Part shown: positions 13,044 to 23,154 of the stretch, piece after piece
Numbering within the stretch: position 1 is the stretch's first letter
Layout: each line of letters starts with the position of its first letter
Assembly: GCF_009649785.1 (NCBI RefSeq)
Contig: NZ_WJOK01000008.1
Location: forward strand, 124,001 to 188,000
Direction of reading: 5' to 3'
DNA length: 64,000 nt
Source: Agrobacterium tumefaciens
GTDB taxonomy: Bacteria > Pseudomonadota > Alphaproteobacteria > Rhizobiales > Rhizobiaceae
Notes under the pieces: model-generated
Seen by the model: only the letters and a program-made list of their open reading frames with translations
Told to the model about the DNA's origin: nothing
Databases searched by the model: none
Made by a program: the position numbers and the translations under genes

Positions 13044-13670
13044 ATGACCATATCTTCACGTGCTCTTTGCGCCGTTTTCGCTGGCGCATTAGCCCTTTCC
13101 ATGCCCGGATCGGCCTTTTCCGAAACCATCGTCAGCAAGACCTATTCCTATTTTTCGATCAGCGGTAAAACCGCCGCTGACCTCGACAAGCAGCTTTCCA
13201 AGCATGGCCCGCTGACGCGCAACACCGGCGCACGCCATCCCGGAGCCACCGAGATCAAATTCGGCGGCGAACTCACCTATGTCGAGAAAAACGGCATGTG
13301 CAGCGTTGGAAGCACCAAGGTGTTGCTGAACACCCGTATTCTCCTGCCGCAATGGAAAAACCGCCGCCGCACCACGGCGGAACTGGCCTTCATCTGGGAT
13401 ACGTTGCTTGCAGATATCAAGCGCCACGAGGAACGGCACGCGGAAATCGCCCGCACCCATGCCCGCTCGCTCGAAAGGCAACTGACGGCGCTTCGTCCGC
13501 AAAAAGACTGTGAAACGCTACAGGCAATGGTCGGCAAGATCACCCAGACCGTCATGGACGAGCACGACAAGGATCAGTTGAGGTTCGATATCGTGGAATC
13601 CAAAAACTTCGACGAGCGCATGACCCGGCTTTTGAAGAACCGGATCGAACAGGGCCAGAACCGGCGCTGA
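13044..13670 (+). CDS. Secreted DUF922-family protein (putative zinc protease)
   Basis: 208 residues with a signal peptide (hydrophobic core about 8-24, cleavage near SAFSE). The mature part has the DUF922 pattern: YSYFSISGKTAADL near the N-terminus, then a helix with HEERHAEIA, an HExxH-like histidine pair that led to the family being described as a predicted secreted Zn-dependent protease. Two cysteines could form a disulfide. Activity is unproven. GGAAGG precedes the ATG. Confidence 0.72.
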   Translation: MTISSRALCAVFAGALALSMPGSAFSETIVSKTYSYFSISGKTAADLDKQLSKHGPLTRNTGARHPGATEIKFGGELTYVEKNGMCSVGSTKVLLNTRILLPQWKNRRRTTAELAFIWDTLLADIKRHEERHAEIARTHARSLERQLTALRPQKDCETLQAMVGKITQTVMDEHDKDQLRFDIVESKNFDERMTRLLKNRIEQGQNRR

Positions 13671-14426: not shown

Positions 14427-14795
14427 TTAGCGGCAGAGCTTGAGGATGAAATTTTCCGCTTCGACAATCGCTGCCGCAAGTCTGGCTACGGCCGCGCTAT
14501 CGTTGCCCTTGTCCTCCACTGCCGCCGCCGCCGTGGAAACGGTGGAGGCACCAACCGCCTGCGCGGCCCCCTTCAGACGATGGGCAGTTGCCTTGACGGT
14601 CTTGTCGTCAGCGCCGGCCATTTCATGCAGAGCAGCACGGGCGTTACGGCTGAAGAGTTGCAGCACCTCGATTTCAAGTTCCTTGTCGCCCATCGTCTGG
14701 CGCGCGAGATGTTCGAAATCGATTGGTCTTGTCGCGGCGGCCGGCGCACCACCAAAATTATCCGGAGCTTCGAAAGCAATACTGACGGCTGCCAT
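14427..14795 (-). CDS. Histidine phosphotransfer (Hpt) domain protein
   Basis: 122 residues from the ATG at 14795, which has a GGA about 9 nt upstream; an upstream ATG at 14858 adds a basic stretch with no visible ribosome site. The Hpt signature ATAHRLKGAAQAVGA places the phospho-acceptor at His72. The rest is helical and fills the four-helix bundle. Such stand-alone proteins move phosphate between hybrid kinases and response regulators. It is not ChpT, the known CckA partner, which has a histidine-kinase-like dimer fold. Its partners are unknown. Confidence 0.85.
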   Translation of the reverse strand: MAAVSIAFEAPDNFGGAPAAATRPIDFEHLARQTMGDKELEIEVLQLFSRNARAALHEMAGADDKTVKATAHRLKGAAQAVGASTVSTAAAAVEDKGNDSAAVARLAAAIVEAENFILKLCR

Positions 14796-15274
14796 ATCTG
14801 AAATTCCTTTGTCTCGCCGTTTCCTGTTTCGTGTCACATCTGTGTCGTATTTACGCATTGAAGCCGGTGCTATCAGCTTAAATTACGGCGTGACGCGGGC
14901 GAAAATCTTCTGCTATGGTTAATTTATGCTAAACTTATGCGAAACAAGGCGTTCAGCGTGAAACTCAGGTTTAAAAACTGTTAAAAAGCCGACACTTCGC
15001 TGCTGCGGCAAACCCGCATTAATTGTTTCGAACACCTAAATGTGTCACTACGGTACTGCCGTTCCGACGAGGCTTATGCTCAAGCTTTGTTATTCCGGCA
15101 CAGTGATGTAATTTCGCCCGAAAGCTGGACCACCAGCAATTCGGGATTGGTAATGGCGGAATTGTTCTCTTTAACGGGATAATGTTCCGCTGGCATGATG
15201 GCGGCAGTCCATTTGCGGGTCGCAGATGGTCAAACGGCATGAAGCCGGGCGTATGTGTAACGAGGCGTAACCGC
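14796..15274. promoter_or_regulatory. Divergent regulatory region between hpt and gpr, with CtrA-like box
   Basis: 479 bp without a convincing gene. It must hold the promoters of both flanking genes. TTTA, 7 nt, TTAA at 14970-14984 matches seven of eight bases of the CtrA consensus, and TTAA, 7 nt, TAAA near 14918 is another partial match. GAGG at 15262-15265 is the ribosome site for gpr at 15275. I see no long hairpin. Confidence 0.4.
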
Positions 15275-18200
15275 ATGGCGAATAACAAGATCAGCGACTC
15301 TGTCGACGAGACTGCATTTCAGGCGTTGGAAGACGCCCTGCAGCTTGGTGCTTTCGAAGACAAGCCGGAATCGCGGAAGACGACAGCGCCAAAGCAGCCG
15401 GAGGCCAGATTGAAGGAAGCAAGCAGACAGCCCCCTGCTCCCGAGGCCGCGCGCGCGCCTGCCGAACAGGCGCCCAGATCCCCCAATCTGGAAGCTGCCA
15501 ACGACGGCTCCAAGCGCAGCCCGGCCATGATCCTGAAATCGCTCGAAGGCGGCTCCATCGGCGGCGCGCTCAGAAACGCGACGATCATGTCGGTGATCTG
15601 GGCGCTCGGCGGCCTCGGCATCGCGCATCTTATCTACGGCAGTGCACTCTGGAACATCGGCTCGGTTGCCGATCTCGCCGCAATACCTGGGCTGATGGCG
15701 ATCGTCGTCGGCATCGTCGTTCCGATCATGCTGTTCTTCGCCTTCGCGATCATGATGGCGCGTGCCCGCGATCTGCGCAACGCTGCCCGGTCGATGGCAG
15801 AAGTCGCCCTTCGTCTTGCCGAACCCGAAACTGTCGCCTCCGACCGGATCATGTCCGTCGGCCAGGCGGTTCGCCGAGAAGTCTCGGCCATGAACGACGG
15901 CATCGAGCGCACCATTGCCCGCGCGACCGAACTCGAAACGCTCGTCCATTCTGAAGTCAACGCGCTTGAGCGCAGCTATGCAGACAATGAACTGCGCGTG
16001 CGCAGCCTCGTGCAGGAACTGAGCGCCGAGCGTGACGCTATCGTCAACCATGCGGAGCGCATCCGCTCCTCCATTGTAGGCGCGCAAGAACAGATCAAGG
16101 AAGAGCTTTCCATCGTCGGCGAAGAGCTTTCGATGCGGCTTTCCACGACCGGTGAGGCCTTCGCCTCGATGATCGACACACGCTCGGCCGCGCTGCTCGA
16201 AAAATCGCGCGCCTCGACCGAGGCGATGGGCAGCCTGATTGCCGCCAAGACCGAAAACCTGCTTCAGGCACTGAATTCCTCGGGCGCAACGCTATCGAGC
16301 GAATTCGACATGCGTCTGCACAACCTCACCTCGACGCTGGACGAGCGCGGCGAAGTGCTGCTGGAACGCTTCGCGATCCACGCCTCGACGCTGGACAGCG
16401 GCGCGGAAAGCCTCAACAGCGCACTCGAGGAACGCACCCGCCAGCTCAACGAGACCCTTTCCACCCGCACGCTCGAACTCAACCGCAATATCGATCGCGG
16501 CCAGCAGATCATCGGCGGTTCGCTGGATAACGTGCTCGACAAGCTGTCCACGACGCTTGAAGAAAAAGGCCTGTCTTTCCGCCAGAGCCTGCAAAGCACG
16601 GCTGATGACGCGATCATGGATCTCGATCTTCGCTCGGGCCTCTATGAAGAACGCCTGCAGGCGACGGTCGGCCAGGTCAACTCCGCCTTCGACGAACATG
16701 TGGCGGATTTCGCCAGTGCCTTCGACCAGCGCGCCGGCAGCCTCGACAGTAAGCTGATGGAGAGCCTCGCCCGGATCAACGAAACCGTTGCTGGCGGCTC
16801 CGAAGCCCTCGACACCATGCTGACCAGCGGACTTGAGCGCATCGGCAACACCATGACCGACCAGTCGCTTGCTCTTGCAACCGCACTGGGCACCGGCCAG
16901 GAAATGCTCGAAAGCGCGCTTGAGACCCGTACCCGCGCGTTCAGCGACGCAATCGGCCAGCGCACCGCTGAAATCACCGATGCCTTCGCCAATTCGCACG
17001 AGAAGATCGACGGCGTGCTGGCGGAGCGCAGCAATGCCCTGTTTGGCGCGCTTTCGGCAAGCCAGGACCGTTTCGACGAGGCGCTCGCCAGCCGTTCGCT
17101 GGCCATTACCGGCTCGGTCTCCGGCACGGCGGAACGTCTAGCCGCGATGCTTGAGGAGCGTGCAGCCGCAATCAACAGCGTCGTTGCCGATGTCGAGCGC
17201 CGTCTTTCGGAAACGCTCGAAACCCGCGCCGCCGCCATCACCGGCACCGTTTCCGGCATTGAGGACCGCATTTCCGATACGCTGGAAAGCCGCACGGCTG
17301 CCCTGCACGACGTCGTATCCGGTGCGGAAAACCGTATTGCCGAGACGCTGGATGGCCGCACGGCCGCTCTTTCCAGCGCCATTTCCGGCGTCGAGGAACG
17401 CATCGCCGACACGATGGACAGCCGCACGCTGTCGCTCGACATGACCTTCGCCAATGTCGAGGAGAGGCTGTCGGAAACGCTCGACAACCGTACCTCCGCT
17501 CTGTCCGGCATTGTGGCAAGTGCCGAAGAGAGGATTGCGGGCGCACTCGACAGCCGCACGTCCACCTTCGGCGACGTGGTTGCCGGTGCCGAGAGCCGTA
17601 TCGCGGAAACGCTTGATGGTCGCACGGCAGCACTCAACGCCGTCGTTTCGGGGGCTGAAGAACGCATTGCGGATGCACTCGACAGCCGCACCATGGCACT
17701 CGACATGGCGTTTTCCGGCGCCGAGGAAAAAATTACCGAAGCACTCGATACCCGCACCGCCGTCCTTGGCGAATTGGTGGCCGGTGCAGAGACCCGTATC
17801 GCAGAAACGCTTGATGGCCGCACGGCGGCGCTTAACGCCGTCGTCTCCGGCGTTGAAGAACGCATTGCAGATGCACTCGACAGCCGCACCATGGCATTTG
17901 ACATGGCGTTTTCCGGCGCCGAGGAAAAAATTACCGAAGCGCTCGATACCCGCACCGCCGTTCTTGGCGAATTGGTGGCCGGTGCCGAGACCCGCATTGC
18001 CAGCGCACTCGACAGCCGCACGGCTTCGCTCAAAAACGTCGTATCCGGCGCGGAAGAGCGGATCACGGACGTGCTCGACAGCCGCACCATGGCGCTCGAC
18101 CTGAGCTTCTCCGGTGTCGAGGAAAAGATCGCCGACATCCTCGACGGACGCACTGCTGCGCTTCACTCGGCGGTTTCCGGGGTCGAAGATCGTATTGCCG

Positions 18201-21200
18201 ATGCCCTGGACAGCCGCACTGCCACCCTTTCCGGCATTGTCTCCAGTGCGGAAGAACGCATCGCGGACGCTCTCGACAGCCGCACCATGGCGCTCGACAT
18301 GACGATTTCTGGCGTTGAGGAGCGTATCTCCGAGGCGATGGATGCCAGAACCGCATCACTGTCGCTCGCGGCCGCAGGCGTCGGCCAGCGACTGGAATCG
18401 ACGGCTTTCACGCTTGAAAACGCACTCGCCAGCGGCCACGAGCGGCTGGAGACCATGCTCGGTTCGCAGGCCGAACGCATTGCCGGCTCGCTTGAGCGCA
18501 ATAGCGGCCTGATCGAGCAGAGCGTCTCCGGCGCGGCCAGCCGCATCGAAAGCGTCGTGGAAGACGGCAGCAGCCGTTTTGCGCAGACGGTGGAAGAAGG
18601 CGTCTCCCGCCTCGAAAACAACCTCTCGCAATCGCATGAAGACATCCGTACCGCGCTCGAGCAGCGCCAGGCGGATATCGCCGCGACGTTGAGCTCAGCC
18701 ACGACCCAGATGGGCGACATGCTCTCCGAGCAGGCGATGATGATCGGCACCACCGTTGCATCCAGCGCCAGCATGCTCGAACTCTCGCTCGAAACCCAGC
18801 AGGAGACGTTACAGAAGGCCATAGACGGCAGTGCAGCCACGCTGGAACAGCGTCTTCGCAACAGCGCCGGTGATATTGCCGTCAAGATCGGTGAGGCCGC
18901 CCGCGAAATTGGCGGTGCGACCGATGCTCTCTCCTCGCGGATCGAAACCTCGATCGGAAGCGTCACGGGCAGGCTCGACGAGACCGGCACCCGCATCGAG
19001 ACCTCGCTCGGAGCGCTGCAGGAGCGTGTGTCGAGCGATCTCGGCAACGTCAACACGTCGATCGAGGATGCCGGACGTCGCTTTGCCGACGCGCTGGAAG
19101 ACAAGACAGCCGCCTTCGCCCGCACCAGCGACGATGCTGCTCAACGTATCACCGGCATTCTGGACGAGCAGACGATACGGGTTGCCGACACCTTCGAAAG
19201 CCGCACCAGCCGTCTGGCGGAAACCTTCGATGCCGGTTCGGCCCGCATCGATGAACGCCTCGGCACCATGGACCGCGCGCTGACGATCGGCCTCGAAAAC
19301 GTCAACCGAACCATCGAAGGCAAGGCGAGCGAGCTCGCGGTCGGCCTGCGTGGCGCAGTCATTTCCGCCACCCAGAGTATCGACGAAGAAGCCGTTCGTT
19401 CCACTGCCCTGCTTGCGAAAACCGGCTCGGAATTCGCCGAACAGGTGCAGGCGCAGAACGACGCCTTCACCAAGGCGATCGAAGAACGCTCCGGCGAGAT
19501 CGTCAATCGCATCTCGGATGCACAGACGCGCCTGTCCGGCCAGGCGGCAGCCGTCGCCCAGACCTTCTCCGAGGCGGGCAACATCATCGTCAACAAGGTT
19601 GCCGAGGCCGAAGCGGTCGTGCGCTCGCAGGTGGGCGTCATTTCCGAGACCCTGACCGGTGTCGAATCCGCTCTCGATGCGCGCGGCGAATCCATCCGCT
19701 CGGCGCTGGACAACCGCACTCGCGAACTCAACTCGATGCTGGCCAGCCGTTCTGCTGAACTGTCGCGTCTGATCGAAGAGAAGGCAAAGCCTGTCGTCGA
19801 CGAATACGCCACCATCGGTCGCGAAGCCGCCGAAAAGATCGTCTCCGCCGCCCAGCAGAGCGCCGAACTTCTGTCGCAGAGCAACAGCGGCATGGTCGGC
19901 ATGGTGGAACAGGCGATCAGCGATTATGCCAATGCCGGAAGCGAGGCAGCAAGCAAGCTTGTCGCGGCAACCCGCCAGAGCACGGACATGCTGTCGCAGA
20001 CGCATACGGCCATGGCCGACGCCGTCGAAGAAGGTATCGACAAATACACCCGCACGGGAAGCGATGTGGCAAACAAGCTTGTCGCCGCCACGCGCCAGAG
20101 CACGGATATGCTGTCGCAGACCCATAACAGCATGGCCGAAATCGTCGAAAAGTCGGCAAACAACTTCAACTCTGCGGTTGAGCGCGCCGCGCAGGAATTC
20201 GGCACGGCCGACGAAGCGTTGAACGCATCGGCCACCCGTTTCTCCGAATCCGCCTCGCAGGCCGCCGACATGGTGTCCAGCTCCAGCCGTCTGCTGGAAG
20301 GAAAGATTGATCGTCTGTCGAATATTTCTGGCCAGACACTGGCGCAGGTTGCCGGCATCGTCGGACGTTTCGAGGAACATTCAAAGGTTCTGAGCCAGGC
20401 GTCCGAACTGCTCAATGCCGCGCAGTCTAGCCTTGTCGGTACGCTGGAAGAGCGTCAGGATGCACTTCGCAGCCTGTCTGTCGGACTAGTCAAGCGTTCC
20501 GAGGAAATCGAAACCGCCATGCGCGGCGTCGTCAGCGTGGTGGAAACCACGCTCAACGAGGCCGAGGAGCGTTCGCAGAACGTCGCCGGCAACCTGCGTG
20601 ACAATCTGCAAGCATCCTTCTCCGATATCGGCCGTTCGCTCGACGAGACGGAACAGCGCGCCCGCTCGGCAGCACAGACCATGCGGGGCGCCCTGCTCGC
20701 CGCTGGTCAGGATGCCAGCCGTTCGATCGAGAGCACGCTTTCCGACGCGCAGAAATATTCCGACGAGCTGGTCAACCGCCTGCGTGGCGGTGTCGAATCC
20801 TCGCTTTCGGAAGTCGACAACCTGCTCGGCAGTGCCTCGGAAAAATCGAATGCCGCCGCCGCCAACCTCAAGGAAACGTTGCGTCAGGCAGTTGAGGAAG
20901 CTGTCAGCCGTTTTGCCGGCGCGACGGACGAAATCCGCCGCTCCAGCCACGATATCCGCCGCGAGCTGGATGCGACCCGTGCCGAACTGAAGCGTGGCGC
21001 GTTCGACCTGCCGGAAGAGGCCAAGGAAAGCGCCGCAGCGATGCGCCGCGCCGTTTCCGAGCAGATCAAGGCCCTGCAGGATATTTCCCAGCTTGTCGGT
21101 CGCTCGACCCAACAGATGGAAGTTTCCGAACCCGTCGCCCGCGCCATTGCAGCGACCCAGCCTGCCGCTGAACGCCGTGTCGAAGCGCGTCCGCAGCCGG

Positions 21201-21826
21201 CAGCAGCCACGCCGGCACAGCCACCACGCCCGGCTCAGCCGCAGCCGGCAGCCGCACCCGCCTTGCGTGGCACCCTGCCGCTTGAGAACCGCCAGGTCGA
21301 AAACCGTCAGGCGCCTGCCCCGTCCCAGGCGGCTGCGGCGCCTGCCGCACGCCGCGAAGAAGGCGGTGGCTGGATCAGCGATCTTCTGCGCGGTGCCTCG
21401 CAGGAATCAGCCGCCGCTTCCGCACCCCGCGCAAGCGGCGATCAGCAGCCGACCCGTGCTGCCGATACCCGCAATCCGCGTCACATGGTGGAATCGCTGA
21501 ACTCGCTGTCCGTCGACATCGCCCGCGCGATCGACCACGATGCGTCGGTGGAACTGTGGCGCCGGTACCAGCGCGGCGAACGTGACGTCTTCACCCGTCG
21601 CCTCTATACGCTGAAGGGCCAGACGACGTTTGACGAGATCAAGCGCAAATACGAGCGGGAGGCCGAATTCCGCACCGCCGTGGACCGCTACATCACCGAT
21701 TTCGAAAAGCTGCTCGCTGATGTCGCCCGCACGGACCGTGACCGGACAGTCACCCAGTCCTACCTCACCTCCGATACCGGCAAGGTCTACACGATGCTTG
21801 CCCATGCGGCGGGTCGGTTCAACTGA
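15275..21826 (+). CDS. gpr: Growth Pole Ring protein homologue, giant apolipoprotein-like coiled-coil protein
   Basis: 2183 residues from the ATG at 15275 (GAGG 9 nt upstream; an ATG at 15182 lacks a site). In A. tumefaciens, GPR forms a ring at the growing pole and is needed for polar growth and rod shape. Here a Pro-rich N-terminus precedes two transmembrane helices (about 15585-15755). About 1,700 mostly helical residues follow, including some 21 consecutive 22-residue repeats (17021-18406) and three 40-residue repeats (19817-20176). Next come a Pro/Ala/Gln-rich linker (about 21160-21470) and a conserved-looking C-terminal domain with SVELWRRYQRGERDVFTRRL. The distance to PBP1a, and neighbours phzF, nadK and prfB, match my memory of the C58 locus. 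Kinesin-like names given to such proteins reflect only coiled-coil similarity. Confidence 0.85.
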   Translation: MANNKISDSVDETAFQALEDALQLGAFEDKPESRKTTAPKQPEARLKEASRQPPAPEAARAPAEQAPRSPNLEAANDGSKRSPAMILKSLEGGSIGGALRNATIMSVIWALGGLGIAHLIYGSALWNIGSVADLAAIPGLMAIVVGIVVPIMLFFAFAIMMARARDLRNAARSMAEVALRLAEPETVASDRIMSVGQAVRREVSAMNDGIERTIARATELETLVHSEVNALERSYADNELRVRSLVQELSAERDAIVNHAERIRSSIVGAQEQIKEELSIVGEELSMRLSTTGEAFASMIDTRSAALLEKSRASTEAMGSLIAAKTENLLQALNSSGATLSSEFDMRLHNLTSTLDERGEVLLERFAIHASTLDSGAESLNSALEERTRQLNETLSTRTLELNRNIDRGQQIIGGSLDNVLDKLSTTLEEKGLSFRQSLQSTADDAIMDLDLRSGLYEERLQATVGQVNSAFDEHVADFASAFDQRAGSLDSKLMESLARINETVAGGSEALDTMLTSGLERIGNTMTDQSLALATALGTGQEMLESALETRTRAFSDAIGQRTAEITDAFANSHEKIDGVLAERSNALFGALSASQDRFDEALASRSLAITGSVSGTAERLAAMLEERAAAINSVVADVERRLSETLETRAAAITGTVSGIEDRISDTLESRTAALHDVVSGAENRIAETLDGRTAALSSAISGVEERIADTMDSRTLSLDMTFANVEERLSETLDNRTSALSGIVASAEERIAGALDSRTSTFGDVVAGAESRIAETLDGRTAALNAVVSGAEERIADALDSRTMALDMAFSGAEEKITEALDTRTAVLGELVAGAETRIAETLDGRTAALNAVVSGVEERIADALDSRTMAFDMAFSGAEEKITEALDTRTAVLGELVAGAETRIASALDSRTASLKNVVSGAEERITDVLDSRTMALDLSFSGVEEKIADILDGRTAALHSAVSGVEDRIADALDSRTATLSGIVSSAEERIADALDSRTMALDMTISGVEERISEAMDARTASLSLAAAGVGQRLESTAFTLENALASGHERLETMLGSQAERIAGSLERNSGLIEQSVSGAASRIESVVEDGSSRFAQTVEEGVSRLENNLSQSHEDIRTALEQRQADIAATLSSATTQMGDMLSEQAMMIGTTVASSASMLELSLETQQETLQKAIDGSAATLEQRLRNSAGDIAVKIGEAAREIGGATDALSSRIETSIGSVTGRLDETGTRIETSLGALQERVSSDLGNVNTSIEDAGRRFADALEDKTAAFARTSDDAAQRITGILDEQTIRVADTFESRTSRLAETFDAGSARIDERLGTMDRALTIGLENVNRTIEGKASELAVGLRGAVISATQSIDEEAVRSTALLAKTGSEFAEQVQAQNDAFTKAIEERSGEIVNRISDAQTRLSGQAAAVAQTFSEAGNIIVNKVAEAEAVVRSQVGVISETLTGVESALDARGESIRSALDNRTRELNSMLASRSAELSRLIEEKAKPVVDEYATIGREAAEKIVSAAQQSAELLSQSNSGMVGMVEQAISDYANAGSEAASKLVAATRQSTDMLSQTHTAMADAVEEGIDKYTRTGSDVANKLVAATRQSTDMLSQTHNSMAEIVEKSANNFNSAVERAAQEFGTADEALNASATRFSESASQAADMVSSSSRLLEGKIDRLSNISGQTLAQVAGIVGRFEEHSKVLSQASELLNAAQSSLVGTLEERQDALRSLSVGLVKRSEEIETAMRGVVSVVETTLNEAEERSQNVAGNLRDNLQASFSDIGRSLDETEQRARSAAQTMRGALLAAGQDASRSIESTLSDAQKYSDELVNRLRGGVESSLSEVDNLLGSASEKSNAAAANLKETLRQAVEEAVSRFAGATDEIRRSSHDIRRELDATRAELKRGAFDLPEEAKESAAAMRRAVSEQIKALQDISQLVGRSTQQMEVSEPVARAIAATQPAAERRVEARPQPAAATPAQPPRPAQPQPAAAPALRGTLPLENRQVENRQAPAPSQAAAAPAARREEGGGWISDLLRGASQESAAASAPRASGDQQPTRAADTRNPRHMVESLNSLSVDIARAIDHDASVELWRRYQRGERDVFTRRLYTLKGQTTFDEIKRKYEREAEFRTAVDRYITDFEKLLADVARTDRDRTVTQSYLTSDTGKVYTMLAHAAGRFN
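17021..18406. repeat. About 21 tandem 66-bp repeats encoding 22-residue helical units in gpr
   Basis: Units read like DSRTMALDMAFSGAEEKITEAL or DGRTAALNAVVSGAEERIADAL, each exactly 22 residues with no gaps. A 22-residue (2 x 11) period is that of apolipoprotein amphipathic helices. Arg-Thr at positions 3-4 and Glu-x-x-Ile/Leu near positions 15-18 are the most constant positions. Confidence 0.9.
17615..18010. repeat. Recent 198-bp tandem duplication inside the gpr repeat array
   Basis: 17615-17812 and 17813-18010 each encode three 22-residue units and differ at only three amino-acid positions. Long nucleotide tracts are identical, including silent positions, unlike the more divergent neighbouring units. 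This indicates a young in-frame duplication. Confidence 0.85.
19817..20176. repeat. Three 120-bp repeats encoding 40-residue units in gpr
   Basis: Units begin at the glycines of GREAAEK, GSEAASK and GSDVANK and are spaced 120 bp apart (19817, 19937, 20057). The second and third share KLVAATRQSTDMLSQTH exactly. The first is diverged. The period is distinct from that of the 22-residue array. Confidence 0.85.
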
Positions 21827-21930: not shown

Positions 21931-22848
21931 TCAGATCTCGAACGTACCCGATGCTACACGGACCGCGTGGCCACCGATGCGGGCGCGGGCGATTTCGTTG
22001 TCCTTGATGTCCATGCGCAGATGGATGTGGGAAGGACGTTCCATCTCCACGCCCTGCTCTATCAAGAGCGGATAGTGACCGTCTGTCAGGCCGTCGAAAT
22101 GATGGATTGCACCGGAAAGGGCGGCGGCGGCGGAACCGGTGGCGGGGTCTTCCGAAATCCCCATTTCCGGGGAAAACATGCGGGCATGGAACTTTGCCGC
22201 GTGATTGACGCCGCCGCGACAGTAGATATAGGCCGCCGTCAGGCGCCCCTCCACCAGCGGTGCGGTGCGCAGCCAGAGATTGGCGTCGAAATCCATTTCG
22301 CTGATAGCGGCAATATTGTGCAGCGGCACGAGCAGGAACGGCACACCGGCCGTCCAGATCGACGGTACGTGGTTCTCAAAGCCGAGATGGCCTTCGCTCA
22401 CGCCCAGCGCATCGGCAAGTGCGGCATGATCGAGCGGCAGGGTGACGCGGGACGATTTGCGCGGCAGGTCGAATTCGGCGAAGCTGACCGAACCGGCGCG
22501 CATTTTCACCGCACAGCGGACCGGACCCACCTTTTCCTCCAGCACACAGACCATATCGATATCGTCGTCACCTTCATTGCGATTGCGCTCGGCAATCGCG
22601 ATCGCTGCGCCAACAGTCGGGTGGCCCGCGAAAGGCAACTCGCCCGAAGGCGTGAAGATACGCAGCGAAGCCGCGTGGGCCGGGTTGCCCGAGCGGTTGA
22701 CGAAAACGGTCTCGGAGAGGTTCATTTCTCTGGCTATTGCCTGCATCGTCACTTGGTCGAGGCCATCCGCGTCATACATGACTGCCAGCGGATTTCCCGC
22801 CATTTTGGTCTCGGTAAAGACATCGTAGATATTGTAATTCAGCACCAC
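21931..22848 (-). CDS. PhzF-family isomerase/epimerase-like protein
   Basis: About 305 residues from a GTG at 22848 (or the adjacent GTG at 22845) with GGAG 6-9 nt upstream; upstream frames continue open but look noncoding. The PhzF fold is that of diaminopimelate epimerase. The conserved acid is the Glu in MNLSETVFV; FTPSGELPFAGHPTVGAA and the C-terminal EDPATGSAAAAL are the other signatures. Members isomerise small metabolites. No phenazine genes are present, so the real substrate is unknown. It is convergent with gpr and divergent from nadK. Confidence 0.88.
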   Translation of the reverse strand: MVLNYNIYDVFTETKMAGNPLAVMYDADGLDQVTMQAIAREMNLSETVFVNRSGNPAHAASLRIFTPSGELPFAGHPTVGAAIAIAERNRNEGDDDIDMVCVLEEKVGPVRCAVKMRAGSVSFAEFDLPRKSSRVTLPLDHAALADALGVSEGHLGFENHVPSIWTAGVPFLLVPLHNIAAISEMDFDANLWLRTAPLVEGRLTAAYIYCRGGVNHAAKFHARMFSPEMGISEDPATGSAAAALSGAIHHFDGLTDGHYPLLIEQGVEMERPSHIHLRMDIKDNEIARARIGGHAVRVASGTFEI

Positions 22849-23154
22849 GCCCGTCTCCTGCCACTCGCCGTTCCGCTTGTTTCGCGCAAGTTGCCTCACG
22901 TCGCGCCGCATCGCAACCCTTGTCGAAGGCCGGAAACCAAGAAGCTGTGGACCGCACGCGGGCAAACCCGCCTGCTGCGAACGCCTGTCCGCCGGAAAGG
23001 CCTTGTCGCCTGCTGCCGTCTTCATGTACCAAGGATGCGTCTTGTGGCTTGCGATCGACCGTTTTATCGACGTTTGGAGATTATGAGCTGCTTCAACAGG
23101 TTACAGCATCGTCCGCATATCGATTCCGGTATGCGTCGTTGCCGAGGGAAGCGA

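Follow-up and report, generated by a model that had tools for sequence, protein, structure and literature searches.

The closest described relatives of the locus studied here are GPR of Agrobacterium tumefaciens C58 (Atu1348) and RgsE of Sinorhizobium meliloti, which at 2,115 and 2,089 amino acids are described as membrane-anchored, cytoplasmic proteins located at the growing pole (PMC8262873, PMC7327166). The account of the C58 protein reports that Agrobacterium requires GPR for its rod shape and for polar growth, that GPR appears as six foci in a ring of ~200 nm at the growth pole, that two transmembrane domains are predicted near its N terminus, and that internal deletions remove residues 232-494 and 1036-1381 (PMC8262873). 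RgsE is described as a large, repeat-containing protein for which a length filter was widened (PMC7327166), and this fits the wide range of gpr lengths that we report below. We analysed a 64,000-nucleotide stretch of A. tumefaciens DNA, hereafter the window, whose GPR is orthologous to that of C58 but carries three extra 22-residue units. These units belong to an array (residues 583-1022 in the window protein) that lies between the two domains deleted in C58 and is untouched by either of the deletions described there (PMC8262873).

Three other groups of proteins share features with GPR. Scy and FilP of Actinobacteria are, like GPR, long hendecad rods tied to cell division or to the poles, with lengths in this group given as under 200 to over 1000 residues; they are described as having a DivIVA-like N-terminal motif (PMC9858780), whereas GPR has N-terminal membrane segments (PMC8262873). 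DivIVA was absent from the three Pfam families matched at E 0.001 when the whole window protein was scanned. The likeness between GPR and the Scy/FilP group is probably convergent.

GPR also matches the same Pfam family as the animal exchangeable apolipoproteins (PF01442), which consist of 22-residue units made of two 11-mers and have grown by duplication of a 66-bp unit. Their units are commonly punctuated by proline, whereas the window GPR has one proline in a rod of 1706 residues and none in the 20 units of its array. Phage tape measure proteins are long helical proteins whose length sets a physical dimension, a role that would be hypothetical for GPR.

The gpr gene and its helical rod

By sequence, the 6.55-kb frame at the head of Table 1 is the growth pole ring gene gpr, because its product matches PF01442 (Apolipoprotein; E 3.4e-49, 167.6 bits against a cut-off of 90 in a whole-protein scan), it has orthologues throughout the genus (39 of 39 genomes, the window's own included, by match to the N-terminal 475 amino acids), and the orthologue in a C58-like genome, G007, which we take to be strain C58, encodes 2115 amino acids as published for GPR. 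The MANNK start gives exactly this length in G007; an upstream ATG at 15182 would give the longest reading of the window gene, 2214 amino acids. When we aligned 23 Agrobacterium proteins (the window and 22 others), GPR was colinear with its C58-like counterpart over the full length, and 1535 of 1640 aligned rod residues were identical between the window and G007. Two hydrophobic stretches are visible by eye near the N terminus, followed by the rod and then the tail.

Table 1. Coordinates of gpr, its parts and nearby genes in the window.
Feature	Position	Strand	Description
gpr, growth pole ring protein gene	15275-21826	+	2183 aa from the MANNK start; Pfam PF01442; orthologues
Helical rod	15884-21001	+	1706 aa, one proline; anchors SAMNDGIE to FDLPEEAKES
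Array of 22-residue (66-bp) units	17021-18340	+	20 units, proline-free, hydrophobic period 3.666
Copy 1 of the 198-bp block, best register	17596-17793	+	15/198 bases differ from copy 2
Copy 2 of the 198-bp block, best register	17794-17991	+	15/198 bases differ from copy 1
Recombination joint	17781-17796	+	16-bp tract coding part of VAGAETR, inside chimeric unit 17747-17812
C-terminal tail	21002-21826	+	proline-rich, low-complexity stretch; small arbitrary length changes; internal control
Hpt domain protein	14427-14858	-	close to gpr; Pfam
PhzC/PhzF-like protein	21931-23025	-	close to gpr; Pfam
DUF922 protein	13044-13670	+	close to gpr; Pfam

GPR also hits two further Pfam families: PF04513 (Baculo_PEP_C) scores 46.2 bits, over a cut-off of 38, and PF07464 (ApoLp-III) falls just short of its own; both matches probably reflect a common amphipathic-helix pattern rather than kinship. 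A search of plasmid records with positions 17000-18600 gave zero matches.

The hydrophobic residues of the rod recur with the period of a hendecad repeat. The spectrum of the whole rod, from which we derived the period independently of any length comparison, peaks at 3.659 residues (power 95.7, compared with 58.4 at 11/3 and 0.6 at 3.5), and the period of the array is close to 11/3 and not to 7/2. AlphaFold2 models of the array were mostly helical with one break each (mean pLDDT 68.6 and 64.5, pTM 0.22). The first model was broken over residues 226-271, a stretch in which 44 of 46 positions are gapped in 16 of the 22 alignment rows; the second model, built from two full-length sequences only, was helical at 226-271 and had a short break at 360-363. 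Because confidence was low in both, we take the models as weak support for a long helix, with which they are consistent. A sequence search of the PDB at E 0.001 found no solved relative of GPR.

A three-unit block in the repeat array

A previous, sequence-only reading of the window had proposed that gpr contains a 198-bp tandem duplication with three repeat units in each copy. The duplication is real: the copies at 17615-17812 and 17813-18010 are adjacent and in frame, each encodes three 22-residue units, and Tandem Repeats Finder reports a period of 198 at 17543-18126 (2.9 copies, 83% matches, score 763). In this register there are 23 differences between the copies in 198 bases, comprising 15 silent codons and 4 residues rather than the three residues counted before, and in the best register (Table 1) they differ by 12 silent codons and 2 residues. 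The same reading had described the silent sites as largely the same, which is true of most codons, but 15 of the 66 (23%) differ silently. This is about the same proportion as the 464 of 2115 codons (21.9%) that differ silently between the window gpr and its closest sister gene, that of A. arsenijevicii (G001, whose protein is the same as that at locus L002).

The window protein had been estimated to exceed the 2,115 residues of C58 GPR by 66-68. We found 2183 residues compared with 2115 in G007, a difference of 68, of which 66 are the duplicated block and the other two stem from small indels in the C-terminal tail, so the excess lies almost wholly at the block and does not come from the choice of start codon.

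Rods in the 23 aligned genes are 1640 residues long in 18, 1706 in three (the window, G034 and G035) and 1816 in two (G023 and G024). The block itself is present in the window and in G034, which belong to the same species, and is missing from 18 of the 21 remaining genes, all with the 1640-residue rod, including the sister gene from A. arsenijevicii and the C58-like gene; the same two copies are thus not a property of all strains. The two longest rods have eight units more than the 1640-residue rod, and the position of their gaps is ambiguous, with one alignment placing gaps at the block and another having no gap there. That the array changes length, as had been suggested, therefore holds between species, the difference from C58 being the block, and does not extend to the window and G034, whose rods are equal. 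In a sister clade (A. rubi, A. rosae, A. larrymoorei and others) the rod lengths are 1732, 1754, 1776, 1798, 1820 and 1842 residues, spaced by 22, and one of its branches (A. cavarae, L018 and G010) has rods of 1813 and 1835, again 22 apart.

Length changes are distributed very differently along the protein. The rod has five distinct gap intervals in the 23-gene alignment, every one a multiple of 22, and shows no other indel outside the array; the much shorter C-terminal tail has 15 gap intervals (12 of 1-5 residues, the others of 11, 15 and 16), and the N-terminal head has three gaps of one residue each.

Unequal recombination between units predicts a chimeric unit at the joint, the first part of which should resemble the unit three positions downstream and the second part the unit three positions upstream. 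We observed this pattern. Across 17681-17780, informative sites favour the downstream over the upstream copy by 39 to 3, and across 17797-17878 the preference is reversed, with 22 sites matching upstream and 4 downstream; in the 16 bases between these segments, the upstream and downstream tracts differ at one position. The switch is identical in G034 (37 to 4, then 23 to 5 informative sites). Since the joint unit combines parts of two units three places apart, we conclude that the block arose by unequal homologous recombination. G035, which is placed elsewhere in the tree, carries a three-unit expansion of its own with a similar switch at another place; its copies differ at 30 of 198 bases, a divergence older than that of the window block.

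We considered whether recombination prefers steps of three units, as mean identity peaked at a lag of three in 8 of the 10 arrays examined, and dropped the idea because steps of 1, 2, 3, 4, 5 and 8 units occur. The best 150-nt self-match lies at three units (198 bp) in the window, G034, G035 and G007, and at two units (132 bp), from residue 758 onward, in G023 and G024 (loci L103 and L102). Averaged over the G024 array, a lag of two units does about as well as one of three.

Length steps of the rod

We compared rod lengths along a tree built from the flanking parts of the protein, from which we drew 45 edge-disjoint pairs comprising 90 distinct proteins, nearly all from Rhizobiaceae by record title; disjoint paths were used so that a single length change was not counted many times. 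This first set leaves out 4 of 119 loci in which no gene was found (L001, L017, L029 and L116) and 4 of 94 distinct proteins that failed the anchors (L035, L061, L063 and L077). Rods were equal in 16 pairs and differed in 29. Among these 29 differences, 18 were multiples of 11 (2.6 expected; binomial p 2e-12), made up of 13 multiples of 22 and 5 odd multiples of 11, and 11 were not multiples of 11. The flanking parts of the same pairs served as controls: multiples of 11 accounted for 1 of 29 non-zero differences in the C-terminal tail (42 usable pairs, after exclusion of those with L033, L043 and L045, which run off the contig after the rod) and for 0 of 13 in the N-terminal head (37 usable pairs).

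As the first set suggested the 11-residue rule, only a second set counts as out-of-sample. For this set we sampled 120 genomes across the order, including 4 of the family to which the window belongs; 118 of them yielded gpr at E 1e-20, in open frames of 713 to 2940 amino acids. Of 60 genes retrieved, 57 were compared, in 23 groups (G059, G062 and G143 entered no pair); 22 groups contained a same-genus pair and one a same-family pair, and one group came from the window's family. Using the closest pair per group, which was picked by N-terminal identity after the output had been seen, we obtained 17 non-zero rod differences, of which 11 were multiples of 11 (p 3e-8), 4 of these being odd multiples, and 6 were not. 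In one group (g39) three pairs were tied with differences of 80, 80 and 0; we took 80, which does not fit the rule. Over all 45 pairs of the second set, 21 of 36 non-zero differences were multiples of 11, and one of the misses is a failed anchor (10 of 40 residues identical). Within this sampling, a family of small genomes (f4: G041, G088, G121 and G151; 1.3-1.4 Mb) had short gpr open frames of 939 and 846 amino acids in two members and no gpr at E 1e-20 in the other two of four.

Across the two sets, 17 differences fall outside the multiples of 11; these group close to whole helical turns at the period of 3.659 residues, a fit equalled by 29 of 50,000 random sets. Clearly out of phase were -6 (from a deep pair) and 163, together with 9, 210 and -16 (twice) among non-representative pairs. 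Recent duplications with spacings other than multiples of 11 (36, 51, 58, 62, 69, 94, 138 and 146 residues) also clustered in phase (Rayleigh p 0.003), centring on -0.16 turn and not on zero. Steps of whole heptads were rejected: multiples of 7 made up 1 of 29 differences in the first set and 0 of 17 in the second, and the power at period 3.5 is negligible. Rod differences in this family are therefore mostly exact multiples of 11 or 22, and the rest lie mostly near whole turns of 3.66 residues.

Together, these data lead us to propose, with a probability of roughly 0.8, that the feature in the window is a three-unit (66-residue, 198-bp) expansion of the GPR rod array, that recombination between units supplies the length steps and that helical phase constrains them. 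The rod would form one continuous, almost straight hendecad helix or coiled coil. Changes in its length would be supplied by recombination between 66-bp units, and selection would weed out those changes that shift the 11-residue hydrophobic stripe out of phase. If phase-breaking changes are removed in this way, the protein can lengthen or shorten without loss of its packing surface, and the phase of the stripe is likely the constraint behind the 11-residue steps.

The alternative to be taken most seriously is that recombination between 66-bp units simply adds or drops whole units and that helical phase is not selected at all. The modulus alone does not prove selection, because unit recombination by itself would already yield multiples of 22, and indeed 13 of the 18 multiples of 11 in the first set are multiples of 22; the chimeric joint, moreover, documents unit recombination directly. 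Supply without selection accounts less readily for the odd multiples of 11 in both sets, although homology between half-units could still give 33-bp steps, and it does not predict that differences other than multiples of 11 should still cluster near whole turns, nor that the rod outside the array should be free of other indels in 23 genes when the tail has 15 gap intervals. We consider this explanation a serious rival, if on balance the less likely one.

Under our preferred reading, in which phase constrains the steps, rod length would alter how far the scaffold extends, by ~10 nm for every 66 residues (0.15 nm per residue); 66 residues are 4% of the rod, and a straight helix would gain that ~10 nm. 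One might go further and regard GPR as a quantised molecular ruler, in which only in-phase lengths are allowed, recombination shifts species between them, and unit number determines how wide the ring is or how far it lies from the pole tip. We regard this extension as speculative and rather unlikely; if it were true, pole geometry would evolve in steps. The phase-keeping length steps are the part worth following. Steps of 11 and 22 residues make an effect of rod length on the growth ring testable, and nature supplies a series of variants set apart by whole units: one clade has rods of 1640, 1706 and 1816 residues, and its sister clade runs from 1732 to 1842 in 22-residue steps. The phase rule also predicts which deletions in GPR should be tolerated, and the array is a part of GPR left intact by the deletions described for C58 (PMC8262873). 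A literature search by title and start of abstract, a scope outside which most subscription journals lie, found no report of variation in GPR unit number.

Divergence of the copies and pace of change

The duplication had been called young, a description that, on the scale of strains, the divergence of its copies does not support. The copies are 7.6-11.6% apart, compared with 8.9% for the whole gene between the window and G001, and they are shared by two conspecific genomes, the window's and G034, which differ by only 0.96% over the gene (copy 2 identical, copy 1 with 4 differences). As the copies are far more diverged than the conspecific genomes, the duplication is much older than the split between these two.

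Divergence between the copies is uneven, with 9 of 60 bases differing in the left part and 6 of 138 in the right. Because of this heterogeneity, gene conversion or recombination probably acted on the copies at a later time, as judged from their sequences. An explanation of a different kind is that the duplication arose or was reshaped through recombination with another Agrobacterium lineage, so that part of one copy is foreign. The left part differs to a degree seen between species (a mean of 8.6 sites from copy 1 and 10.5 from copy 2), that of copy 1 being closest to G012 (4 of 60 bases), while in the right part 19 other genes differ from copy 1 at 14-27 sites, against 6 between the copies. 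No single donor emerges, however: the other species fall about evenly into copy-1-like and copy-2-like states at the 23 positions that distinguish the copies. We hold a foreign contribution to be less likely than not.

We also asked whether gpr behaves as a contingency locus, with rapid length variation among strains. A self-match of at least 90% over 150 nt is present in 36 of 154 genes, so gpr expands repeatedly, and some close relatives do differ: two Rhizobium mongolense records (L072 and L076; path 0.004) by 11 residues and a Neorhizobium pair (L045 and L070; path 0.012) by 22. Against such a rapid pace, rods are equal in 10 of the 12 closest disjoint pairs (path under 0.015), one of these pairs being the window and G034, and the copies in the window are as far apart as given above; the comparison of near-identical strains draws on few strains per species. 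Fast strain-level variation is accordingly quite improbable, and the sequences suggest that the rod changes mostly between species, the R. mongolense pair being near the level of strains.

An assembly artefact can be set aside: the window's genome is in 63 contigs, but the copies differ at 23 sites and the block recurs in G034, a separate assembly of ~6 contigs, with the 4 differences in copy 1 noted above.

In the gene at locus L048, a recent self-match around residue 688 has a spacing of 51 residues (153 nt), with 94% matching over 150 nt; 51 residues is also the unit length of Streptomyces Scy.
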